NCBI RefSeq assembly: GCF_033115175.1
Contig: NC_084843.1
Location: 57,886,474-57,950,473, forward strand
Length of the DNA stretch: 64,000 bases
Direction of reading: 5' to 3'
DNA from: Lepus europaeus
Lineage: Eukaryota; Chordata; Mammalia; Lagomorpha; Leporidae
The notes beneath the pieces were generated by a model. It saw only the letters and a list, made by a program, of their open reading frames with translations, made no database searches and had not been told where the DNA came from. The translations under genes were made by a program, and so were the position numbers. This document shows, piece after piece, positions 9,953 through 57,467 of the stretch (positions within the stretch are counted from its first letter, which is position 1; every line of letters begins with the position of its first letter).

Positions 9953-10160
9953 GTGAGTGGCTTACCGCCCCCGGAGCTGACGTGGCTGCTGAATGGCCAA
10001 CCTGTGCTGCCAGACGCCTCCCACAAGATGCTGGTCAGGGAGACCGGAGTCCACTCTCTGCTCATCGACCCACTCACACAACGTGACGCCGGCACCTACA
10101 CATGTGTGGCCACCAACAAAACCGGGGAAAACTCCTTTAGTTTGGAGCTCACTGTAGTAG
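9953..10160 (+). CDS. MYPN: Myopalladin exon: core and end of Ig domain 4
   Basis: 208 nt (69 codons plus one base). It starts VSGLPPPELTWLLNG, with the C-strand Trp, and runs through QRDAGTYTCVATNKTGE, a complete D-x-G-x-Y-x-C motif, to the G strand LELTVV. Of the three Ig domains here this is the only one with both canonical cysteines. Myopalladin's C-terminal Ig region is known to bind the EF-hand part of alpha-actinin. The donor is TAG|gtaagg. Reading on past it gives only intron. Confidence 0.97.
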
Positions 10161-10851
10161 GTAAGGTGCGCTGCTGGGACCCCTACACGGAACTGCCTCC
10201 CAAGTTACCGCCCAGACAGCAAGAATTCCCCAGTGCTTTGCCCCACCGTGTCTGTTCTGTTTCCCCTTCAACACGGTCAAGGCCATTTTTCCGACATTAC
10301 CTTCAAAGTGAAGCAGTCTTGAGATCAATCGTCTAGAAATGGAACGTGGCACCTGGTCCACGTGTCACATGATAAATGGTGGCCATAATGGCAAGATTGT
10401 GATTTTTGTGGGTTTTTTTTTTTTTTAAATGTATAGGATCCTGTAGATGTGAGATTTTTCAAAATAAGAAGTTGGGGCAAATTAAAGTATCTTCTTTGAA
10501 ATGAACTCCTCCCCAGTATAAAAGAATCTATTTAGACACAGAGGATACCGCTGCTCCACGTTCAATATTGTGCATAAAACAAACTCCACCCTTCTAACAC
10601 AGCCCACGTGTGCGCCCCGGGTCCTGAGCGTAGTCGCTCGTGGGAGGCACAGAGACAGCCGTGTGCGCCTTTGTTAACCACTTATGGAGACTTTTCCCAG
10701 GCAGTGACCCTCACCAAGGGGCACAAGTGCCCTGAGGCGGAGGCGGGGGTGGGCGCGTGCCCACTCTGCTGCCTCCCAGAGCTGCAGCGAGTGTGGGGCC
10801 CGAGGCTGCGGGCACTTAGGGCTCCACAAGAGCGGCCTTCTCCTCCTGCAG
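10161..10851 (+). other. MYPN: MYPN intron
   Basis: Short intron, GC-rich towards its 3' end, where an open frame runs into the next exon without being coding. It contains a T-run at about 10410-10425 but no SINE. The acceptor is cctgcag. Confidence 0.85.
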
Positions 10852-28328: not shown

Positions 28329-29145
<817 letters not shown>

Positions 29146-29170: not shown

Positions 29171-29179
29171 AATTTATAG
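29171..29179 (-). promoter_or_regulatory. ATOH7: ATOH7 TATA box (CTATAAATT on -)
   Basis: A good TATA element read on the minus strand, about 385 nt upstream of the ATG, with GC-rich flanks. It is the only such element near the gene start. Confidence 0.7.
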
Positions 29180-29198
29180 CGGAGGCCAAAGGAGGGAA

Positions 29199-29214
29199 CA
29201 GGTGGTGGCAGGTG
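29199..29214 (-). promoter_or_regulatory. ATOH7: Paired E-boxes of the ATOH7 proximal promoter
   Basis: Two CACCTG E-boxes (29199-29204 and 29209-29214 on +, as CAGGTG) lie 10 bp apart, one helical turn, just upstream of the TATA box. Atoh7 proximal promoters of other vertebrates are known to carry conserved E-boxes bound by proneural bHLH proteins, including Atoh7 itself. A further CATCTG is at 29359-29364. Confidence 0.6.
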
Positions 29215-29300
29215 GGCGGGCGTCCCTCGGCTTCCACCTCAGCACCTTCCTGCCCTGGGAACGGCGGGGGGCGGGGGCGACCCACAGCCGCATCCTGACG

Positions 29301-31835
29301 GTGCGGCCTTCGTCTGTTGAAGTTTCTCCAGAGCCAAGGCCAGCACTAACTAACGCACCATCTGGAGTGGCCTGGCTGTCCCCAGAAGAATAGCGGAGTG
29401 GGCGGGGGGTGGGCTTGGTGCACCTTTTTCCCGTACCAGCGGGAAGCTTACGTATCAAAAAACTCAGCTTCAAATGGTTAGAAATCCTGTGTGAGACGAA
29501 GTGGTTTGGGCATTAGTCGGCATACCAGACACTTATAAAGATTCAGTGTATGAAGAGGCAGCTTTGTGGAGAAGTGCGTCGATTTTGCATAATGCTGATC
29601 TAATATGTTGACGTTTTGATGTTAGCTGTTCAGTAAATTGGGACAAATTAGCCAGTCCTACTACTGTTGCAGACCTGGAATTTTATTATGCAAATAGTTT
29701 AGCGGTTCTTTTGTGAAATAATTTGTTCTAACATATCAAAAGATATTACTGGATAGATAGAAAACTTTTAATTATTCTAACCATATAATTGGATTGCATG
29801 ATCTTGAATAGTTAGGCAATACTTATAGTTCATTTCTCCTGACATAGTTTCATAAATGTTTGTGGGACATTGAGATGATAGCCAATTATTTAACATTGAA
29901 AAAGAAAACTAATCACACGTATATGTGCAAACATGTAAGTAATGTGTAAGGCTTTAAAAAATCATTCCTAATGGAAGACATTGGTCCACCTTGTGAAGCT
30001 GAAGTATTTCATACAACTTGGTTGTTGTGGCAGCTGTCCTCGAGAGTAATAATGAAGCATGATTTCCACTATTGATAATGAGGATCTGATTTATAAAGAA
30101 AAACCATTCATTTGATTTTCTCATCTCAGCTTATTTCTTGCTCATAAGAGGAACCCAGGGCTAAAGAAACCAGCTCCAAGCAAGTGCAATCCAGAATCAT
30201 TTCTGGATTCTTCAGGAAGATGAAGCAAGTTCTTGTTCCTTTTGGTATGTGGACATGTGCACATTATTCTCAGATATGTTTATTTCATTAAACTGTCAAC
30301 AAGCTCTCAGCAATCAGGAGTCTTCTCGCTGTGACTGGCTTCCCCCGCACTGCCTCTGACTGTTGCCCCATTGTGACTGCCCTGACTCCAAGTCCTGTCT
30401 TCCCATAAATAGTTGATTAACCCCCAGCTGAAGCAGTGACAATGAAATGAAGTTGAATAACATGAAGACAATGGGATGCAATTGAACATTAATGATCTTC
30501 AGCATGACAGATGTTGAACACAGACTTTTGCCTGGAGCCACTCAGCTCCGTTACTCTGAGTCCTAACAGTCTGCTCAGTCCTGTGACAGGAAAGACTGTT
30601 ATGTAGCCATCAAAACATCATATTTTTTTTTAATTTTCATGGAAAACTGCCCCATTCATGCAGTTGTTTCTCATGTTCATTTAGCTCATCCCTTTCCCAC
30701 AGAGCTCCCTCTGTGCTACTCTGTGGAGTGTTTTTTGCAAAATAGACTGTGGGTTCTTTCTAGATACTGTTGTCCAAAGTGCTAATGAGACGTGTGCTTT
30801 TGCAAGCCATGTACCCAGAGTTGGAGAGATTTTAGCCTGTGGACCAAGGGCATCGAAAGCCTAACTGGAAGAGAAAAAGGGAAACAGCACTGGGCACACA
30901 ACACAGCTATTTTAGAACATACACTAGCAGATATCTAAAATGCAAAATTGATCCAAGAACAGAGAACATTGCAACAGTAAAGGGGGCCCTTGAGGGCCTA
31001 TAGTAAGCTATTTCCTCAGTATGTTCTAAAAGTCAGTGTTAATACTACAAAGATGCTTCTGGGGAATACCTGCTATCTTCTTGGAAACTCATGAAGCAAA
31101 ATTGATGTGTAAAGTTTCAGAGAAGTCCCATAATAAAGAAACCTATTGACATCTGCATTTCCGAGACCTTGAATACAGAACCCCCTTGCCCCTAGAGAGA
31201 TTAACAAAGTTCCTTGAACACTTTCTCACATCTGCTGTAGTACCTTCCATTTACTTTATGGAGAAGGAAGCTGTGCCAGAGACTGAACACCATGCTCAAA
31301 GGCACTCAGCAATTTGATGACAAATGAAGACAAGATGTGGAGTCTATGTCCATTGATTTTGAAAGCTTTGAAATTATGTGATCGGTCAACACAAACCCCT
31401 CATTTGCCAGTGGGGTAACAGAGATTCCCCACTGACTTCCCAGAGCCAGATATATCATTAATAGAATTATAGGACTAGAAGTAGAAACACAGAAGGCTGT
31501 GTTATTTACATTTTATAACCCTAGTGTCTAGCACAGTGCCTAAAAGATGCCAGGTACTCAGTAACCCAGATGGAATGAATGGAACAGTAAGATAAATGGC
31601 AAGGATCAGAATGAGCTCATCAAAGGATGTGCATCCCCTCATATGCAGAGGACATGGCTAGCTGCATTTTTTGAATGTAGAATGGGTTCCTTCTTAGCAA
31701 AAAAAAAAAAAATCTGTAGCCATTTGGGCTCACAGAACACGCATACCAGAGTAATTTCCATAATATTTCTATATTGAGAGTGTGATGCTTCCAGGTAAAC
31801 TGGAAGTTACTGTTCTTAAACAAAATTTGTAAGGG
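29301..31835. other. SINE-free region upstream of ATOH7
   Basis: 2.5 kb without a C-SINE; about 31250-31580 holds MIR/L2-like scraps. Motifs such as TTTTGCATAATGCTGATC (about 29584) stand out, but no gene is seen. Confidence 0.6.
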
Positions 31836-32134: not shown

Positions 32135-34805
32135 TGTAAGGGGTGATTGCTTTGGACCAGGATTCTTTCTAGGCCCAATAGAACAAAGTAAATATGGAGT
32201 CAGTCATACTAAATGAAACTAGCCCAGGCGTATGCGCCTGTTAACAAATGGCTGAGTTTCAGTTTAGTTGTAGCAGCTGAGTGTTAGTCACTTGTAGGCG
32301 GCCAACTGATTCAAGCAAGGCAAATGCTGTTACCAGTGAGCTGCATCCCTCCCTCCATTCTCCACTCCTGACTATTGCATGACCACATTACTAGCCAGGG
32401 CTCTTTGAGCCTCTTCTGGTTCAGAGGGCTGCCTGGTTTTGGAATTGAGAGTAAATGCCAACTAAGATCTTACATTAAATTTTTGTCACTTCTGTCTTTT
32501 GTTACTATATGGCCAGAAATCAAAACTGGGATGTGGAGACAGGGAGTTGGGAGTAGGGGTGAGAGAGAAGAAACTTGCACCTGTAGAAGCCATAGAAAAA
32601 TCAGAGAAGTTTAGTGTTAGACATTAAAGACCAATGGCTGGAACTTATTACATAAGAGCTGTAGAATAGGTTTAGTAAACAGTCTTTTACTATGCAAAAT
32701 CATATTTAATTTTTAAATAGGAGAGTCTCCAAAAAGCCACACAATTAAAGAGCAAAGCACTTGGTGGAAAATGTCCATTCTGAGATTTGTAGAGAAAATC
32801 TGGGAAAAGAAAACTGGAGCTTTCTAACATAGCAGGGAGCAGTTAGGGACCCTGGGTCCCAGAAAGCCGGAGAGGTAAGCCCACAAAAGACAAAGGAGTC
32901 CCAGTGAGTGTCACGCTGATAAAGACCAGAGAATGGAAGGAGTTAGAAGAGTTCCCATATTTTATAATATGCTTTCTGGCTATTAGAGGGGAAATAACCC
33001 TAAAAGAATTTACAAGTAAGCATTTAGAGAGAGAAAGAGAGAGGCCAAGAATATTCCTTTGCTCCCTGCTTCCCAAAGGTGCAGAAACTAAGGGACAGAG
33101 ACTAATAATGGCATCTGCAGAAAAGTGACAATGGCGAGCCCCAGGAGGTCCGGTCCCAGACCCCAGAAGTGATTACTCACTAGAAAGCACAGGTTCTCCA
33201 AAGAGCCCCGGGAGATGCTCCAACCTGCAGTCAGCACACACTCAAGGACTCTGGCTCAGCTCAGCTGTCTGATCTTTCTAACCAAACTCTGCCTCACTCT
33301 TGGCCAGTGGATCTTAGACTCTCCCTCAGCAGCAGGGCCAGCGGGGCAGGGGTGTGGGGTGGCCCAGGGGGAACCATTTCGGAGTCTTTGGCGTCAGTTT
33401 TGAGTGTTGGATCTGCCACCTTCCAACCAAGCTGCGTGCTCTCGTGAAAATCACTTCTATTCCTCCATCCCACCTCACAGGCAGGAGTGGTTTTAAATGA
33501 CCTGTTCCTGTCAAGGACATTGGCCTCTAAGAAAGAAACCCTTTAAATGACAGCTGGTGTTCTGGATAGTTTTTTACAAATGACAATGACAATGAATTCA
33601 GTTTCTGCAGCTTTTGAGTGTCAGGAATCATTTTTGAACCTTTTACATGTAAAGCTCCAGTAAAATCATGATGTGAATCCCAGCTGTGTGACCTAGGGCA
33701 ACTTGCTTCACCTCTCTGTGCCTCTTACCTTATCTAGAAAGCAGGGGCAACAATAGAATCAATCTCCTAGGGCAGGATTAAGCTAGTTATTCTTTGTAAA
33801 GCACTTAGATTTATGGCTGGCGTATTATTAAATGCAATGTAGGTACCTGTTTAAACAAACAGCCCGTTGTAACCCAGGGGCTGGAATAACCACCCACTCC
33901 TTCTGCTTCTTTTTTCTTTGTCTTGCCCTTTAGCACTTATACTATGGGGTAATCAAAGACAGGAGAGAACAATAAATTCAAAGGAATTCATCTTCCTTTG
34001 GTATTGAAGCAAGCTGATGTTGAAATGTCAAAGACAGAGCCCCAGGAGCTCTCGGAGGAAGCCTTTCTGGGCAGTAGGGTTAGCGGTTTCATTAGAGTCT
34101 GAGATTCAGTTTTGTAGTTGTGGTTGCATGCTTAAAAGTGTGATTTTCAGAGGATGCCCTATTTTCCCAGGGTTGAAATATTTGCAGGTACCACTCGAGA
34201 CCCTCCCTTCCCGGCACTGAGGCATTTGAGAGGACAAATTGGTTGTCGTGCTGTTGACTCATAAGTGCAGAACCAGGCTTAAGGATGTGCTAGACTGTTC
34301 TGCAGAAGGGCCACTTCTCAGAATGCCCTTCCCTGTGTAGCTCCAGATCTGAGTTTGAACCCGTGTGAGCCTTGGGAGGCAGAAGCCAAGCCACCACACT
34401 CTGAAGAGAACCGTAGGCCACAGGCCATGAGCACAGACACGGAGATGCAGGGGCCCAGGGGGACACTGTTCTGTCTATACCCATGTGCTGCCCCACCTTG
34501 CAGGGCTCTGTCACCATGACCCACGCCAGCGCTGCTGGTGACTTCTCCTGTCCGCTGACAATCTGTTTTTGCACCTTTACATCCCTAATACTTCTTCTGA
34601 TTGTCTAAGGCCTCATGCTCATAACAAATACCTTCTGCCATCACACTTAGGTGGTCCTGTTCTCCTGGTTGGATCCCAGCTGAAACAAGAGCTACTTCAT
34701 GAAGGCCACAGTAAAGCCAAAAGTCTTATCCCTGCCTCCCTCTGGCGACCTCTACACACCAGGGCCCCAGTGTCTTGAGTCGAGGATTAGATATTTAATC
34801 TCTTA
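32135..34805. other. Intergenic DNA without recognisable genes
   Basis: Apart from the MIR at 33660-33845 I see no repeat or coding signature here. Open frames are short and lack splice or family support. Confidence 0.6.
33660..33845 (+). repeat. MIR SINE fossil
   Basis: The core CAGCTGTGTGACCTAGGGCA and CTTCACCTCTCTGTGCCTC identify a mammalian-wide interspersed repeat. Confidence 0.8.
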
Positions 34806-38362: not shown

Positions 38363-41159
38363 TAACACCTTCAGAAATCACCAAATGCTTACCAAGTCTT
38401 GATTCTACCCTCACAAGAGCCCCTAAGCAGAGATTGCCATTTGAAGCCTGGTTAAACTGAGCAACATGGTGGTTCCATTTGAACTCAGCTCTCTTCACAG
38501 AGCTCATGCTCTCTACAGCCCTGGCTCTCACACCCACAGGACCTGCCTGCAGATAACCCCCGGCTGCTTCCCCACAGCCTGATTCCAGTGCCTTGAGTGT
38601 TGAAGAGAAGGGTGGAGAGAAAAGGAGATAAATGCAACGCACAGGAGTCTTCCAGAGGGGGTGCTCTGTGAGAATGTTATAACTACTAATTCATTAATGG
38701 AAGCATGAAGACTGCAGGAAAGTTGGAAGAGCTTTTGCTGGATCATGTAATGCCCATCCTACACTAGCACAACCCGTCTGATGCTAAGTTCCTACATAAG
38801 TGAGGATGTGTGTGCCAAGGGCAGCTGTCTGGGAGCATGGTGGTCAGTCACTGGGGCAGGACACACTCCTTGGCCAGAGAAGAGAAGAAATTGAACTGTC
38901 TTTAGCTCTGCTGCAAAGTTACCCAGCCCTTGGTGGCATCCTCTGAAGAGCCTCCCTTTTGGAGGGAGCTGGGACAGAGACTTTGATCTCTTGTTCAGGG
39001 GTTTTGCCCCAGCTTCAGAGCTGTCACAGAGAAATGGACCCAGTCTCACATTTGGATCCTCAGAGGAAGCCTTCTAGAGAACAATCAGCGCCTTTCTGGT
39101 CTGAGTCAATGCCCAAATGTGGCCTGGAAGGATGAGTATCACGGAAGAAGGCATGATGGCCATGGCTTTATTTCTGTTCATGGCTGAAGACATTACATAG
39201 ACAAAGGGGAAGAGGTGGACATTGCTATGTATGGGCCTTTGGCATTTGCAGCATTAGCACTCTCATGTCGCCCCAAGTTGCCAGGTGTGGAGGTGATCAG
39301 CAAGCCGAGGAGCAGGTTCAGCTGACAGATCCCCTGGCACCTGTGCAGAAGCCTTTATGGGGAAGCGGATGTTTCCGTGAGAATCCTGAGGTTTCAGCTT
39401 CAACCACGTGCAAGCATCACAAGCCTACTGTACAAAACTCACCATTCACTCCTTTTTTTTCTGCAAGTTTTTGGTGGGAAACAGTATCACTTAAGATTCT
39501 TTCAGGAGCAAAAAAGAAAAAAGGAAACAGAACCAATCTTTGGTTGATTTAAGCAAAAGGCGATTTATAGGAAACATACTAGACCAAATGAAGCTTAAAC
39601 AACCAGCTCTCTGGCAGGCCTGGAATGAATGACAGCCTGGGACCCTAGCAGCTGCTGCTCCTAGCCCTGGAACACCATTATAAGATGTCCCTGCACCCAC
39701 TCAACTATTCCAACTAAGTTTTTGAAAACGCTGGGAGGGAGACTTCGCTTGGCCAGCTTGTCAAGCACCTCTAGCTTTGGCCACAGAACAAGACAGGGAG
39801 TAGCAACATGGTCAGCCGGGGTTGGAGAGGACACTTGTGAGCCAGAGGCCGCTGCAGTTTGTTATCTGCCAGAGAAAGGAGGACCCATTCACCTTATCCT
39901 CGAGAAGAGACCTGGCTGACACTGTAGATTAGGGGAAAATGTACTCAAGCCTCCTAGGGAAATGAGGATTCTGCCTTACAGATAGGTGGTGGCCAACCCT
40001 ACCCATTAATCTTGTTCAGCATGAGAGCAACGCTCCAGCACCCATCTCTGCTACGTGGATTCTTCAGTGCAACTTGTGAATGGGATACAAAGACATCATA
40101 CTTTGTTGAAACGAGCAATCCTGGGAGGATGCTCTGAGCTCTGCTCTGCCCATTAGGACCTATAATTTTGTTCAAATAGCCAGAAAATTAAACCCACCCA
40201 GGGAGGGCCATTGATTTCCAATTGGCATAGTTCGCCAGATGCTGTTTGGCCCAAGAACCGCCTTGACCTCTGCTAGTGACGCCACCTGCCCTTGGCTTTG
40301 CAGGGTGTGTTCCCAGCAGGGAAGGCCTCTCCACTAATGTTGGAACTTGGGCTGAAGAAGGCGTGGCGGGTTCCCCATATGTTGCAGGGGAGAGGCCAGC
40401 CACGCCCAGCATGTTGGATTTGTCTTTTTATCCAGCCCTGGTGCTGAAGCCACCCCCAGGAGATTACAGACGCTGCCACTCCCAACTAATTAAATAGGTG
40501 GCTTCCTGCTGCTCAAAGGGAATGAGGGCAGAAAAACAGGACCAGGGGATGGAGCTGCACAGCCGGGCCCAGGAATCACCGATGCGTGCCTAAACAGTTT
40601 CTAATGGGTCAGAGTGGTTGAGATCCCGAGCTCTATTCCCAGCCACCTTCATCCTGCCAAAGCCTGAAGACCATAGTGTTTGTCATAGAAACTTTAACAC
40701 AGTGTTAAATATATTATCTATTAATGAGCACCTCTTACCATCATCCCAATCCTTGTGTTGTAAAAGTGACAGTTAAAGGTACTTTTTTTTTTTTTTTAAA
40801 TAGGACAACCTGAAGATAATGCTACCTCCTCATCCACACACATACACACACACACAGCCGGCTTCAGGATTGAAAGTGAAGTGCTTGCCTAAGCTTCCAG
40901 CACTAAGTCTAAATATCCGCACCACCATAAGTTTAGAAAGAAACTAAAATCATGGTTTGAATGAAGGGATGAAAAATCCTCTTGGGCTTTTCCAGCAGGT
41001 AAGCAAAACAGCGAGTCCCTATCTGAGTCCATTCTGCCTTTACCACAAATCACCTGGAAGGAAAGAAGCCAGGAGGTGCGAAGAGGAAGACAGTTGTAAT
41101 CACGGGAAATTGGACTAAATTAAAATGATCCTATGTCACAGCACAGATAGGCCTCTTCA
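38363..41159. other. SINE-free island, left part
   Basis: Unique DNA with a 15-bp palindrome TTAACACAGTGTTAA (40694-40708) and a (CA)n run at about 40835-40856. No coding signature. Confidence 0.55.
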
Positions 41160-41350
41160 CCACCAACTTTTGACATTCTAATTAGGGTAAATGGTTATGC
41201 AAATCTAGCCACTCTCATCCCTCCCAGCCTAGCGCCCCGCGATTGTTCAAGTGAGGACTGTTGGTGGCGTAATTAAAGCTCTCCTAAAAACTAATTGGGG
41301 ACTGGAGGACAGCCTCCAAAGATGCCCTAATTTGTGTGCAGCCCGGCACA
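41160..41350. promoter_or_regulatory. Candidate conserved noncoding element, ATOH7 -12 kb
   Basis: Repeat-free DNA with a palindromic CTAATTAG (41178-41185), a perfect octamer ATGCAAAT (41197-41204), TAATTA (41270-41275) and TAATTG (41292-41297) within 120 bp. The motif density suggests a homeodomain/POU-bound enhancer. Conservation itself cannot be seen from one sequence. Confidence 0.4.
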
Positions 41351-41703
41351 GCTGTCCTTTTGTCCTGCCTGCCACCAGGACGCCGAGTGTTTCCCCATCA
41401 AGGATAACAGAATGCGACACTCGAGATGTTCTCAGGCTGAGGGCCTCAAGAGAGGAGGAGAAGACAGGCGGCCAGGAGTTCCCCACACCCAGGTCTCCTC
41501 CTTCCAGGCATGCTCAGCTGAGAGAAGAACCCACGCGTGGAGCAGAGAAGGCTGGAGTTTGGGAACACTTATTAACAAAATTGCTCACGTGTTAATAATG
41601 GTTGAAACTGCATGATGGGTATGTGGCTAGGGGAAGGGGTGAGTAAAGCATTTGTTTTGCTTTTGTGAATATTCAAGGTTTTCCATAATAAAAAATACTT
41701 TGG

Positions 41704-41791
41704 GGTCTTCCTCTCTGGGAGCCCCCCTCCTGGCTGCTGCAGCAGGAGGTTTCTGACTGAAATAAATCTTGGTTTGTTAAAAAAAAAAAAT
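41704..41791 (+). repeat. Polyadenylated retroelement scrap
   Basis: GAAATAAATCTTGG followed by A11 after a CCTCTCTGGGAGCCCCCCTC stretch looks like the end of a retroposed RNA or an old LTR. Family not identified. Confidence 0.3.
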
Positions 41792-41925
41792 TTAATGCAT
41801 ATGCTACTGATGTGGGAGAAATAGGAGTTTAATTTAATCTAGGTCCTTGCCTTAAAAAGCATTTTAAGCGCAGGCACATATACAGTATACAGTGATAAAG
41901 TTTATTTAAAAGGTAAGAAAGCAAA

Positions 41926-41944
41926 CACACACACACACACACAC
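41926..41944. repeat. (AC)n microsatellite
   Basis: About nine to ten AC units. Confidence 0.9.
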
Positions 41945-42039
41945 GTGGGCATATTTGAGGGGTGGAGTAAGAAGAGAGAGAAGGGGTGGGGGAAGGGAAG
42001 CAGAGAGAGGGAGCAGCTCAGGACCTCCTCAGCCTTGGT

Positions 42040-42170
42040 CTCCACTGGAAGACAGTGAGCACCTGCCAGCAGCTCCTTTAGGAGGTAACAGTGGTCATCT
42101 GGGAAGTTTATGACACGTCCTTTAAATGCCACTTGGAGCTTAATTTGCATATTCACATGGCTCCCTCTCC
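42040..42170. promoter_or_regulatory. Candidate element with octamer site
   Basis: Carries TTAATTTGCATATTC with a perfect octamer ATTTGCAT (42143-42150), preceded by TTTAAATG. It lies in a repeat-poor island 13 kb upstream of ATOH7, beside an (AC)n run. Confidence 0.25.
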
Positions 42171-42384
42171 CTAGGCCTGACAGAAAAATGAGATGGAATT
42201 ACATGGGGCAGGCAGGGCCTTGCAGTTTGTGACCTCCAGCTCAGCAAGCTACCTTATCCCTTATCACTACCAAAAATAGCACCTGTCATGGGGAGAAAGT
42301 TCTGAATAGCAGAGATCAACTTCCCTTCATGGAGAAGAGTCAGAGAGAAGCTAATCTTTAAATGGGTACACTGCAGGGGTGAGC

Positions 42385-42650
42385 TTCTAGCCCAGTAGCT
42401 CAGGTGCTGGCTAGGACACCTACATCCCATGTTGGAGCCTCTGACTGTGCCTTCCGACTCTATCTTCTTGCTAATGAAGACCCTGAGAAGTAGTCATGAC
42501 CTGGATTGAGTTCCCACCTATTGGCTCCGCCCCAGCCCTGTCTTGGCTTTTGAAACCATTTGGGGAGTGAACCAACAGATGGGTAAGCTCGTTCTCTCTC
42601 TCTCGCTCTCTTCCACTTCACCTTTCAAATAAATTAACTTTTTAAAGATT
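42385..42650 (+). mobile_element. C-SINE, old
   Basis: Diverged copy with CATTTGGGGAGTGAACCAAC and TTTCAAATAAATTAAC. Confidence 0.8.
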
Positions 42651-43923: not shown

Positions 43924-44189
43924 ATAAAAGAAAAATAACTTAAGTCCCTAAATTATAATATCTTGCCAGAGAGACAAAGAAATTCTCTCCTAATAAGCTC
44001 CCATTGGCAGCCAGAAGTCAAGAGGCAATGAAAGAAGCAGTTGAGCTTCAGTCCTCCACGTGGAAGTTGCTTTGTGGGGAGTCCTTGGCAACAAGCATCA
44101 CAGCACAGGGCTCTGTAGCCCTCGGAGATCCCCACCCTCCCTGCTGCAGAACGGCGCTTTTTTCTTTATCTTTTACAAGTATCCATGTC

Positions 44190-44420
44190 TGGGGTGACAA
44201 TAATTAATGAGCTAGAAAAAAGCTGCCCAGCCAGGCTGGGCCCAGTATTTCCTAGCTTTGTTAGGAAAACTTGAAAGGATCAGTGTGTGTTAATTAATTG
44301 GTCTTCAGGTAGTAACTAAATCAAAGGTGTCTTGGGTTCCCTGGGAAGCCAGAGTCTCCTCTTTCCTGAGAATCAATCAGCACAAGATTGATGAAGGGCT
44401 GCTGAGGTCAGGCTTAGAAA
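44190..44420. promoter_or_regulatory. Candidate noncoding element with TAATTA cluster
   Basis: Unique sequence with AATAATTAATGAG, TTAATTAATTGG and AATCAATCAGCAC-type homeodomain or PBX/HOX-like sites, 15 kb upstream of ATOH7. It is flanked by SINE-free DNA on the right. Confidence 0.25.
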
Positions 44421-44424
44421 CACA

Positions 44425-45915
44425 AAACCATCTGCCAACTCTCCAGGGCTAGCGCCTGCAGTAGGGCAATTTTAGGAGAACAGGTGTTCACTTTCAACTT
44501 ACCTCTTCTTTTCTTTTATGCTGAAATCATGATTTTAGCTAAAAAGGGCCTCCAGTTGGTTGACGAAATTCACAAACTGTGTACTGTAACTTAAAATAAC
44601 CTGGCCCAAAGCATGGTGATAACCTCAACTGGCTGTTCCACAAAGTCGTGCAGCACACAGCCCTGACAGGGGTCACGCTGGCCTCCCCAGGAGCATCTGA
44701 CAGCATCAGGGAACAGTGACTTACAAGGCACCATCCTAGAAGTGGTAAACCAAGGAACACCGTGTCACCCCCCTATATAATGCAGGACTGCAGGAAAGAT
44801 CCAACTTGGTCCAGCTACTTTGCAGAGCATGTTTGAGGCCCTACATCATCCTAGAAAGCTGACACTTCAATGTTTCTGGGTCCTTGAAGCAACTTCTGGT
44901 TTAACAAGCTAAGGACACTTTCAAGTCTTTGATGATGACCTGCATCACACCCATACCTTGGTGACGGTGGCTCCATGACAGGAATCCCCTTTGCTCCCCA
45001 CCCCCGTCCCCCTCAAAAAAGCTCCTGGATTTATGTCAAGTTTTCTTCTTTTAAATGAAAGTATTCCCTGCTCCTGCTAACCAGGTATGTCACCAGTTTC
45101 CCAGCAATACCGGCAGTTTCCCAAAACTCTCTTGTGGTAGAGTGTATTGGTGCAAATATGTTTTCCCCTCCCATGTGTTTTTCTTGGAAAGTAACATTGA
45201 CATTCCGCCATCAAGAGGTGGATTTGTGTTGCTGCCCCTGGAGCAGGACAGACGTTTGTGAAGCCTCAGCCAGTAGAATGCAGCAGAAGTGAAACTCAAA
45301 GCTGACACAGCTTCCACGTGGCTCCCTTAGGTCACGTGTCTCAGGTGCCAAGCCAACAGAGAAGCAGTGCCACTACCCTCAGTCCGCCACACCGGAAACA
45401 TCACGTGGAGACACTCTACACTCATCCCAGGAGCTCGCCCCATTTCAGCTCCAGCTGTCTGCGTGTTCCCAACACAGGCTCCAAACACACGTGCAAACGA
45501 GACTTCAGATAGCCTCTGCATTTGTGCTGCCCCAGTGACACCAAGAGGAAGACAGACGAGCCCTGTTTCAACAGCAAAAGCAAACTATCTGGCTTTCCTC
45601 TGCTCTCACACCACAACCTCCAACACAAAAGACTTCTGGGATTCCAGATTTCTCCCCACCAGCCAGCAAACCAGCAATTTTGCAGTGGACACCAACTAGC
45701 TGTCCTCTAAGGCAATTCTAGTTTTGATGCTACCTACCCCCTGAAAAAATCAGATCCAACAGGTGGAGGGCTCTGTCCCCAAGACCTCCTCCCTACTGCA
45801 GACTTCAGTTGCAAATCCCAGGTGGCTTTACCTGTGCTTCTGCCCAACCCTCCTTGAGTGTGTGCTTGAGCAGCTCACAGAACTCAGGAACACACGTTTA
45901 CTGATGTATCATAAA
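44425..45915. other. SINE-free intergenic DNA
   Basis: Unique DNA. I see no gene, RNA or repeat that I can support. Open frames of 60-110 codons here lack any family resemblance. Confidence 0.55.
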
Positions 45916-47036: not shown

Positions 47037-47221
47037 ATAACATAAAATAAAACAATACAAAGCAAAAGTCAGGCATAAGCATGCCCATAAGCTGATACAT
47101 TATGATACGAACATGGAGTACAAGTGGACAGAATGTATCTAATGTGCACCTAATGTATACACAGAAGGGGGACCCAGGGCAAGGGAACATGGGGTGGAGA
47201 GATGGGAGATGGATTGAATGC

Positions 47222-49044: not shown

Positions 49045-49689
49045 GTGGTATTAAAATGCCCAAATCGGACCATCATAGAGTAGTTAATATCAGACTTCAT
49101 GTCCAGCCGTTAAAAAAATGAAACCCTAAAACTTGAGCAAAATATAATATGATCAGGGCTATGATCACTGAGCGAGGAGAAGCACACAGGTGAGGTCCAC
49201 ATTCACGCAGCTCTCTCCCCAGGGACATTTTTCAGGCCTGCCTGTGGGCCTGCAGGGGACAGTCGAAGAGAATGGCAACTTACCGGTTAGAAGTTGGCTT
49301 CAGAGTCAAAAACTAAGGTCAGTTGCTATCAAAGGCAGCTCAGGGTGCTGGAGAAGGGAGTGCTACAAAACAGGAACCCACACGTCTATGTAAAAACTCC
49401 TCTCAGGTCTTGGCCAGCTCCCAGGCCATGTGAGAACTCCTTCAAGGGACGGTCTCATTTCTTTCTCTGTCCCAACAGCACCCAGCAGTCAATCTTCTTA
49501 CTGTGTGACTCCACACTCGGGGAGGTCCTGGGCCTCTAGCAGTCCACAAGCCTCCACTCACCAGGTGTTCTCAATACAGTACCCGTATGTGGTTTTTAAC
49601 TCTTTCTTCTCTACTCCCATCCCATCAATCCATGGTCTCTGTTAAAATGGCTTGCACGTATGTAAAACAGAAAATATCACTGAGCAACA

Positions 49690-50200
49690 GTAGGGATCAA
49701 TTCCTGCCTGGAAAAGATTACAATATGAATATATACAGTGATTAATTAACATTGCCAAGTCCACTCCCTAATACTGCACAAAATAAAGTTTGCTTTGGCT
49801 TCCCTAAAAATGGGTATTTCTTATTCTTGCAGGTCTCAGCAGCCTAACTTGTTCTGCATATGTTTGCATGTTTAATTAGTGATCCTTCTGTAAGTGTCTG
49901 CAATTAGCACCATGATGATTAATAAAAGAACTCCTTTAAAGCTCCATTTAGCTAGCAGAACTGCACAATCAGGTATAATTAATTCATCATTAATAAATCA
50001 TGGCTGATCGACTAATCTGTTTATTACAACACATTACTGAAAAGTTCCCACCTGAGCACAGCTAATTTTTCTATGCTGAACAGAATTGGAAGCTAATTTT
50101 TAAACATTTTCTTATACAGCTTCCTCAAAAGTGCACTTTACAGCAAGTAAATTGGTATGGTCAGGGAGATTTTGAGGCAGTGAGCATTTAAATGTTACTG
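49690..50200. promoter_or_regulatory. ATOH7: Candidate ATOH7 distal (shadow) enhancer
   Basis: About 500 bp of unique DNA located 20.5-21 kb upstream of the ATOH7 TATA box, inside a SINE-free island. It is strikingly rich in homeodomain cores: TAATTA at 49743-49748, 49873-49878 and 49976-49981, CAATTA at about 49901, several ATTAAT/CTAAT sites, and TAATCT (OTX-like) at about 50013. It also has CATATG next to TTTGCATG (about 49858-49870) and one CACCTG E-box (50049-50054). It is known that the human ATOH7 locus has a remote retinal enhancer about 20 kb upstream whose deletion causes congenital retinal nonattachment. Equivalence here is inferred from distance, synteny and motif content. Confidence 0.55.
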
Positions 50201-50254
50201 AGCTGCATAGGCAGTTGTCACCTGGGAATGAAGAAGATGGTGGCTAAATCTGGA

Positions 50255-50415
50255 AGCCTGAACACCTGTTAGTCTGCAACTTTAAGCACACACTAGAATC
50301 TCCTGGAGGGCTTATTAAACCCCAGATCACTGGGCCCCACCCCGGAGGCTGTCTGATTCGTGTGACCGGGATAGGATCTGTGAATCTGCATATCTCACCA
50401 GCTGACGCTGATGGT
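50255..50415 (+). mobile_element. MER5A-like hAT fragment
   Basis: CTAGAATCTCCTGGAGGGCTT and CACTGGGCCCCACCCC are MER5A phrases. It lies immediately right of the candidate distal enhancer. Confidence 0.65.
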
Positions 50416-51160
50416 CCGCCACATTTGCACATTTTCTCATTCGCTGGAGACATCTCACAACAGCCATGATTTCCAGTTCCTTTCTATAGATTTTAATAGT
50501 TTTTTTAAAAAGCGATCATTGTCAGTCATGTTTATCTGTTCTTGTGTTTATGTTGACTATCAAATGTACTGTTAATTTAAGAATTATTTCTCTTTTATTT
50601 CTCACCTGGCCCCACAGAACCTATTTTCTAATTGTAGAAAACTGACACAAGCCCCACACAAGCCCCATGCACCTGGGGATCTCTGCTCATGTGCCAGTCC
50701 TTCTACACCCTATCCTTCAGCGCCTGGCTCTGCCACTGCCCTCCTGTCTGCCCCCTGCATGGACCCTAATCACAAACCAGCCAAGTGCTCATAATCTTTT
50801 CACAAAAGGATGAGCCTGGTCTTCCTGCTGAGAGTGAGCAAGCCCCTAGAGAGCTCTCAGCTCCCTGCCTAATCCCCTTTGCAGCCTGCCCCCCAGCTCT
50901 CCTCCCTGCCAGCCTCTTACACGGTGTTTAACAACAGCACACAGCAAATCTTACATTGTGAAATTATTTAACAGCAGATCTGAACCACAGGCCTGGAAAC
51001 CAGATCCCAGCTGGGCACCTAACACAGAGGGAGGGACAGCAAAGGGCGATTCCCGTCCAGAAAAGAGCTTGGAAATAGGAAAACAATCTACACTCTCCGA
51101 GTTAGACCATAAAACAAGCAAAGCAAGTCAAAGAAAAGGAAAACAAAGTCAATTCAAAGA

Positions 51161-51245
51161 TGTGGTTCTCAACTGGGTGAGGGATTTTGCTACCCTCCCT
51201 CCCAGGGAAAGGGTCATTTGGCAATGTCTAGCCACATTAAAGGAA
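51161..51245 (+). mobile_element. hAT-type fossil fragment (same family as 18300)
   Basis: GTGGTTCTCAACTGGG and GGTCATTTGGCAATGTCTAG form the other end of the family seen near 18.3 kb. Confidence 0.55.
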
Positions 51246-51375
51246 CAGAATGGTCTGACTATAATCTGATCGAAGTGGGTCAGCATGGAGGTACTGGGAA
51301 AGCTTGTTCAGGCAGACCAGCTTTGATAGGGCCCAGGAAGATCCTACCTGAGGGGCTGAGCCACGGCAAAGAGGA

Positions 51376-51525
51376 TGCAGGTGTGCTAAGGGGCAGGTTA
51401 GGCACAGCGGACTCACATCTCACACAGGTGCAGGCGGTGCTGAGCTAGTTAACAGACAGGAGCAGGCTGTGCTACAAGGCAGGTTGCTCACAGTGGAGTC
51501 ACATCCCACACAGGTGCAGACTACA
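51376..51525. repeat. Degenerate two-copy tandem repeat (period about 86 bp)
   Basis: TGTGCTAAGGGGCAGGTTAG (from 51382) recurs as TGTGCTACAAGGCAGGTTGC (from 51468). About 55 bp of each copy align, ending CACACAGGTGCAG in both. Confidence 0.8.
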
Positions 51526-51690
51526 CGCAGCATGTCTTACAAAAATACTGTAAAAAGAGGCATAAGGCAATCAGGGAAATAGAACTTTAACAGGATATTC
51601 AATATGTTATTTCTTCTTTGGAGGGTATTATATTACTTCCTATTGTTGCATATTACCATATTACCACATCTTCAGCAGCTGAAAACAACA

Positions 51691-52010
51691 CACCACTTTT
51701 TTAAAAAAAGTATTTATTTATTTGAAAGTCAGAGTTACTGAGAGAGAGGGAGAGACAGAGAGGGAGAGATCTTCCATCTGCTGGTTTACTCACCAGATGG
51801 CCACGATGGCTGTGGCTGGGCCAGGCTGGAGCCAGGAGCCAGGAGCTTCCTCTGGGTCTTCCCATGCACTTAGGCCATCTTCTACTGCTTTCCCAGGCCA
51901 TAGCAGAGAGCAAGATTGGAAGTGGAGCAGCCAGGACTTGAATGGGTGCACATATGGGACGCCAGCACTGCAGGCAGTGGCTTTATCCACTATGCCACAG
52001 TGCCAGCCCC
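51691..52010 (-). mobile_element. C-SINE, CSINE2-type, antisense
   Basis: TTTTTTAAAAAAAGTATTTATT to CACAGTGCCAGCCCC. Inserted in an older repeat. Confidence 0.93.
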
Positions 52011-55535: not shown

Positions 55536-55541
55536 TTTATT
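55536..55541 (-). terminator. PBLD: Possible PBLD polyadenylation signal (AATAAA on -)
   Basis: AATAAA read on -, about 755 nt beyond the PBLD stop, in an AT-rich stretch. An ATTAAA at 55936-55941 is an alternative. The choice is not decided by sequence. Confidence 0.35.
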
Positions 55542-56295: not shown

Positions 56296-56408
56296 CTAGA
56301 CAGACAGCGTGCCCTCCACCACAACAGCCGCGTCTCCCCTAATGTCAACTCGTCCACCTGAACGCAGGGATAACTCCAGTTCTCCTCCTCGGCAGGAACA
56401 CTGAAAGG
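56296..56408 (-). CDS. PBLD: PBLD terminal coding exon
   Basis: Last coding exon on -, after acceptor ccttttag. Two bases complete Ala, then 36 codons and TAG (56296-56298). It encodes FQCSCRGGELELSLRSGGRV, then DIRGDAAVVVEGTLSV, the C-terminal strands of the PhzF-like fold with the usual GxxxVxxEG ending. The four PBLD exons total 444 nt and join without a frameshift. Compared with the human protein as I remember it, the ending differs slightly (SV instead of TA). Confidence 0.93.
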
Positions 56409-57467
56409 CTAAAAGGAACATAGGATGAGTCCCACAGGGAGTGCATTTTTCCCCGTATTAAATTAACAGAACACAGTGAAAGACCTCTTATTACAAACCC
56501 TAGAGCCCTCGCAGTCTATGCATGAACAGATTCCATCACCTGTCCACGGTACTGCCCACCCTCAACCCCATTCTCCTGAAGACTGAGATGGGCACAAATG
56601 CAATTCATCTACAGAACACACAGCTCCACATCTTCCCCTCCTGGTCACCTCTTTTGCTGCTCCCCATAATGACGCAGTCAACCCCAGCTGTGGAGTCTGG
56701 GAGGAAGCTAGCATGCGTGAGAAGAGAAAGCGTCACAGGCTCTCATTCTACGAAGATGCAGAGGGGCAGTGGTCTTGGCCCTCCTGAGAAGGCCCCATCT
56801 CAGCTCCGAACAGGACAGAGAGAGTTTGCTCACTCGCTCATATTCAAGCAACGCCATGGACCAGGCACCCAAAGGAGGCCCAGCCTCAGCCTTCCCGGAG
56901 CTCAGAGTTTAGGAGAATAATTAGACCCCTCCTCCCAAGGAAGGAAAGCAGCAACTCCGCCATCTCCACATCGGGGTCAGGGACGCCTGCCCCTCCTGCT
57001 GAGTAAGAATCTCCTTCCTGCAGGGTCAGGTTCTGCTGTGATGATCGGGGCAGAGCCGCTGCCATGTTGGCTGCAGTCTCTTTTCTACACCCCTGAGCAG
57101 TATACTAATCTCTAGGGGACTGGCTTTGAAGACAATGTGTTTGATTCACTCCTGTGACTAGCAACAGCAGTAAGGAAACTCGGTGATTGTCCAGTCTCAA
57201 CTTACCACGTTAATGTCACCTCTCTGCGTCAAAGTTATCCAGCAAGAGAATCTGACTCAATCAACATTTACTGGGGCACTCACTGTACCAGAGGTAATTT
57301 TGTGCTGGATGAGGCAGAGGTGCAATGTGATCCAGGGAGGAGGGATTTATTTCATTTTCATGGGAGTAATACACAATGCTTTATTGTATTTTCAGGGAAA
57401 TGATAGAGAAGGAATATGATCTCAGAGTTAGGAAAATAACAAAGAAATTGGAAAACAGTTATCCTAC

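Follow-up and report, generated by a model that had tools for sequence, protein, structure and literature searches.

A plausible distal regulatory element of ATOH7 among three homeodomain-site clusters in a short lagomorph ATOH7-PBLD spacer

Loss of the remote enhancer of human ATOH7 leads to congenital blindness, whereas deletion of the mouse counterpart fails to reproduce the disease (PMC8576187), and a review suggests that redundant elements buffer mouse Atoh7 upon deletion of the remote enhancer (PMC8908986). The human deletion in NCRNA is listed in a table of PMC8834682 as c.-22208_-15686del, i.e. 15.7-22.2 kb upstream, and for the mouse PMC6033939 gives 1.5 kb upstream for a primary enhancer and, counted from the ATG, 9.5 kb for a shadow enhancer. 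The mouse distal enhancer is furthermore described as two sub-regions with differing dynamics (PMC10018358), and the human distal enhancer as bound by ATOH7 itself, ATOH7-bound sites generally carrying Atoh1/NeuroD1-type E-boxes together with TAATT cores (PMC11240604). The distance between element and gene differs at least 1.6-fold between human and mouse. With the two elements placed at 15.7-22.2 kb and 9.5 kb, respectively, a distance of 'about 20 kb' can therefore not identify the element in a third mammal, and considering the mouse position we rejected a match in raw distance as an identifying argument. The number of enhancers in the spacer and their orthology in other mammals bears on the human/mouse difference upon remote enhancer loss; a segment merely orthologous to a known element would add one species.

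In the window, the whole 64-kb stretch of lagomorph DNA that was analysed, the bHLH gene is ATOH7 and lies where an earlier note on this DNA had put it (Table 1), with a protein that we take to be 88.8% identical to human ATOH7. On the other side of the gene, immunoglobulin-domain sequence at 9953-10336 would fit MYPN. By match to the human protein, we assign PBLD exons to 62207-62115, 61870-61685, 57531-57466 and 56415-56302 of the minus strand, and an AATAAA is present at 55541, beyond the stop of this gene. Because PBLD terminates within the window, the ATOH7-PBLD spacer is short, about 27 kb, compared with presumably ~50.5 kb in the human (hg19) and an assumed 19-24 kb in the mouse, a value that was varied in the positional model below. 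The segment under study lies upstream of ATOH7 and between the two minus-strand genes, 20.5-21.0 kb from the TATA box and 20.9-21.4 kb from the ATG, so that both the placement and the distance given earlier agree with the exon coordinates and with the measurement from the TATA at 29173. It is nearer to PBLD, the 3' end of which is ~5 kb away, than to ATOH7. No Rfam family matched the 64-kb window at the gathering threshold.

Table 1. Positions of the genes, sites and clusters discussed, in window coordinates.
Feature	Position	Strand	Description
ATOH7 single coding exon	28332-28787	minus	HLH (bHLH) domain, E 4.9e-21
ATOH7 TATA box	29173-29178	minus	
Probable primary enhancer, distal CNE	30331-30730	minus	E-boxes, RBPJ-like, SOX and MEIS sites
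41-kb cluster	41131-41530		CTAATTAG, octamer ATGCAAAT, two further homeodomain sites, CAGCTG
44-kb cluster	44051-44450		ATAATTAATGAGC and TTAATTAATTGG; 15.3-15.7 kb from ATOH7 ATG
Segment	49690-50200		511 bases, 35% GC, homeodomain-type site cluster; candidate distal regulatory element
TAATTA core 1	49743-49748		GATTAATTAAC
CATATG E-box joined to octamer-like site (CATATGTTTGCATG)	49857-49870	+	CATATG at 49857, TTTGCATG at 49863
TAATTA core 2	49873-49878		TAATTAG
TAATTA core 3	49975-49983	+	within ATAATTAAT, TAATTA at 49976
OTX-like TAATCT	50013-50018	+	
RBPJ-like TTCCCAC overlapping CACCTG E-box	50045-50054		CACCTG at 50049
Presumed MER5A-like DNA transposon remnant	50273-50413	+	72% to consensus; starts 73 bases past the segment
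PBLD last coding exon	56302-56415	minus	stop shortly after; far limit of spacer

All motifs previously named in the segment (three TAATTA, TAATCT, CATATGTTTGCATG and CACCTG) were recovered, and its richness in homeodomain sites exceeds chance. TAAT occurs 20 times vs 9.83 expected, a count reached by none of 2000 dinucleotide shuffles, and the same number of shuffles yielded P=0.008 for TAATT (10 vs 3.54) and P=0.012 for TAATTA (3 vs 0.47). Three TAATTA per 511 bases are encountered only here when the 64 kb are scanned in steps of 10, and the sequence holding the third core, ATAATTAAT, presumably resembles a POU4-type site. CANNTG E-boxes are scarcer than the window average (2 vs 3.68), consisting of one CATATG and one CACCTG, without CAGCTG or CAGATG. 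Measured against a background of 160 kb from 16 loci of the same genome, all three counts were as high in one of 892 GC-matched overlapping windows and in 3 of the 3040 overlapping windows overall, and among 93 non-overlapping GC-matched windows none held 20 TAAT and one held three TAATTA. The site cluster is unusual, yet not unique in its own genome.

Self-comparison confirmed a SINE-free island around the segment (49045-51694); however, six of the 13 listed SINE-free stretches of at least 900 bases are larger, and the island was for this reason rejected as evidence for an element. At least four further partial matches to the MER5A-like remnant adjoining the segment, at 80-89%, are present elsewhere in the genome. 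In a search of the animal's own genome (2.93 Gb, 649 contigs), the segment matched only itself, in two pieces covering 355 of the 511 bases; the earlier description as unique thus stands for these bases, the remainder being outside the returned pieces. A search of the own genome with part of the segment as query gave no match, the self-match included. Five exact patterns, three from the segment and two from the rival clusters, had no match in viral contigs, one exact segment pattern had none in prokaryote genomes, and six short DNA words of the window were absent from the text of the searched papers.

To rank the segment within the spacer, 400-base windows were scored for motifs. Uncorrected, the segment was top at 8.9 with the next window at 5.2, the 44-kb cluster being fourth (5.0), the probable primary enhancer fifth (5.0) and the 41-kb cluster seventh (4.0), but the word list included TTTGCATG, which is drawn from the segment and favours it. 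The corrected test dropped TTTGCATG along with two further octamer patterns and both the PAX6-half and the SIX family, and covered 15 windows, 12 from the uncorrected listing and three added by hand, with composition-corrected shuffling. The segment then displayed 10 sites in total vs 4.20 (P=0.006) and 4 homeodomain sites vs 1.08 (P=0.017), while the corresponding figures were 8 vs 2.17 (P=0.002) and 3 vs 0.23 (0/1000) for 44051-44450, and 6 vs 1.96 (P=0.008) and 3 vs 0.14 (0/1000) for 41131-41530. The probable primary enhancer region reached 8 sites vs 3.48 (P=0.018), the window 40131-40530 was significant neither in total (P=0.053) nor in homeodomain sites (P=0.214), and the window at 47091, third without correction, had P=0.619 once corrected. 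In a scan of 166 windows, homeodomain P<=0.005 was found in six, all within the 41- and 44-kb clusters, and the windows of the segment gave P=0.015-0.072. In total sites the segment is thus about equal to the 41-kb cluster, and in homeodomain sites the 41- and 44-kb clusters are stronger. Separately, the SOX/E-box-rich window 33531-33930 (total P=0.002, no homeodomain site) overlaps what we take to be a MIR-like ancient SINE remnant (33682-33821, 72% to consensus).

The 41-kb cluster is located 12.3-12.7 kb from the ATOH7 ATG, within a SINE-free 4.1-kb island (38366-42497), and CAGATG, CACCTG and CATATG are present at 40.2-40.4 kb, less than 1 kb from it; a query of 40000-41500 returned only the self-match from the own genome. 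The two site groups at 40160-41530 would fit two sub-regions, as in the mouse distal enhancer. Within the 44-kb cluster, the third homeodomain cluster of the spacer, ACAATAATTAATGAGCTAG and GTTAATTAATTGG are at most ~100 bases apart (44190-44310). The region 30331-30730, ~1.5-1.9 kb from the ATG, is judging by its position and sites probably the ATOH7 primary enhancer, close to the 1.5 kb of its mouse equivalent.

Expressed as a fraction of the spacer, from the TATA box to the last coding exon of PBLD, the segment lies at 0.76, with 0.41, 0.44 and 0.55 for the clusters located at 40.16, 41.18 and 44.20 kb, respectively, values that shift by at most 0.05 if self-repeats are excluded. We take the human deletion to occupy ~0.31-0.44 of the human spacer, translating here into ~37-41 kb, and the 41.1-41.5 kb cluster is slightly beyond this range. 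The raw distance of the segment fits the human interval, not the mouse, and its proportional position, given the presumed PBLD coordinates, fits neither. In a rough positional model of random insertions and deletions, which builds on our own assumptions and on presumed human and mouse gene coordinates, 0.9-2.3% of the runs brought the segment into the interval deleted in the human, as compared to 28-33% for the site at 40.16 kb, 26-28% for that at 41.18 kb and 15-17% for that at 44.20 kb; for the segment, the model mean corresponds to a human position about 38 kb upstream. The mouse position was matched in 0.6-4.3% of runs for the segment and in 19-21%, 20-26% and 11-23% for the three other sites, in the same order.

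Our main reading, with a probability of roughly 0.42, is that the segment represents a distal enhancer in the spacer, one of three clusters, and that the human remote enhancer more likely has its counterpart at ~40-41.5 kb (or 44.1-44.5 kb). Judged from its sequence, the segment could plausibly function as a distal regulatory element, with a presumed enhancer activity and a presumed target gene. It would act in neural or retinal progenitors, where its TAATTA/TAATTAG cores may be bound by paired-type and LIM homeodomain factors (of the VSX2, RAX or LHX2 type) and its CATATG by a proneural bHLH factor. That the same kind of score flags the probable primary enhancer, fifth before correction and significant after it, was counted in favor of an enhancer. 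As for the remote enhancer, the ranking points to the 40-41.5 kb pair as the more likely candidate, with orthology to the human element putative; in favor of the 41-kb cluster, ATOH7 binds the human distal enhancer and the cluster combines CAGCTG with CTAATTAG, the segment being devoid of the ATOH7-type CAGCTG and CAGATG. The segment may also constitute a third, distal enhancer of ATOH7 that is distinct from both the primary and the remote one and lies between the latter and PBLD, as one of the redundant buffering elements, a more specific proposal that we regard as rather unlikely.

The earlier note had proposed that the segment itself probably corresponds, in the lagomorph, to the core of the remote (shadow) enhancer deleted in human NCRNA, a view congruent with its presence in the same spacer and on the same side, at a distance from the ATG within the human interval, and with its top uncorrected score, albeit from a word list favouring it. 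The human remote enhancer is moreover reportedly, according to the Ghiasvand 2011 abstract, minimally similar to the primary enhancer, and BLAST of the segment against the primary enhancer region 29171-31800 detected no similarity at E<=1, such that the segment agrees with the human element in this respect. The proposal is nevertheless not supported: distance is unconserved, with the mouse element at 9.5 kb; proportion predicts 37-41 kb, the segment being at 0.76 of the spacer as opposed to ~0.31-0.44 in the human, with a presumed PBLD end; the model agrees with the human or mouse position in only 0.6-4.3% of its runs; and the corrected homeodomain excess is weaker than that of the 41- and 44-kb clusters, in a segment poor in E-boxes. 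Judged by position and site content, the segment is probably not the NCRNA remote-enhancer counterpart, and we consider this identity improbable, the segment being a secondary candidate for it.

A somewhat unlikely alternative is that we are dealing with neutral AT-rich intergenic DNA, in which a chance run of TAAT happens to lie beside an old transposon remnant. The base composition, a corrected homeodomain P of only 0.015-0.072 in the 166-window scan and the three background windows among 3040 reaching all three counts are in line with this notion, but none of 2000 shuffles matched the TAAT excess and several site types co-occur in the segment (P=0.006). It is highly unlikely that the segment instead serves another gene or tissue, be it PBLD or another neighbour; it is admittedly nearer to PBLD and its motifs are generic to homeodomain factors, yet among the genes of the interval ATOH7 is the one encoding a developmental transcription factor, and a homeodomain cluster is unlikely to act on PBLD, the product of which is an enzyme-like protein.

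Compared with the ATOH7 primary enhancer, the segment shares the gene, but its make-up is of homeodomain type, as opposed to the E-box, SOX and MEIS sites of the former. With the human remote enhancer of NCRNA it has in common the spacer, the side and the homeodomain cores that would be expected there, and it deviates in proportional position and in having fewer ATOH7-type E-boxes than would be anticipated from the sites that ATOH7 binds. The mouse distal, or shadow, enhancer is likewise upstream of the gene, however at less than half the distance of the segment, and its two sub-regions are better matched by the 40-41.5 kb pair.
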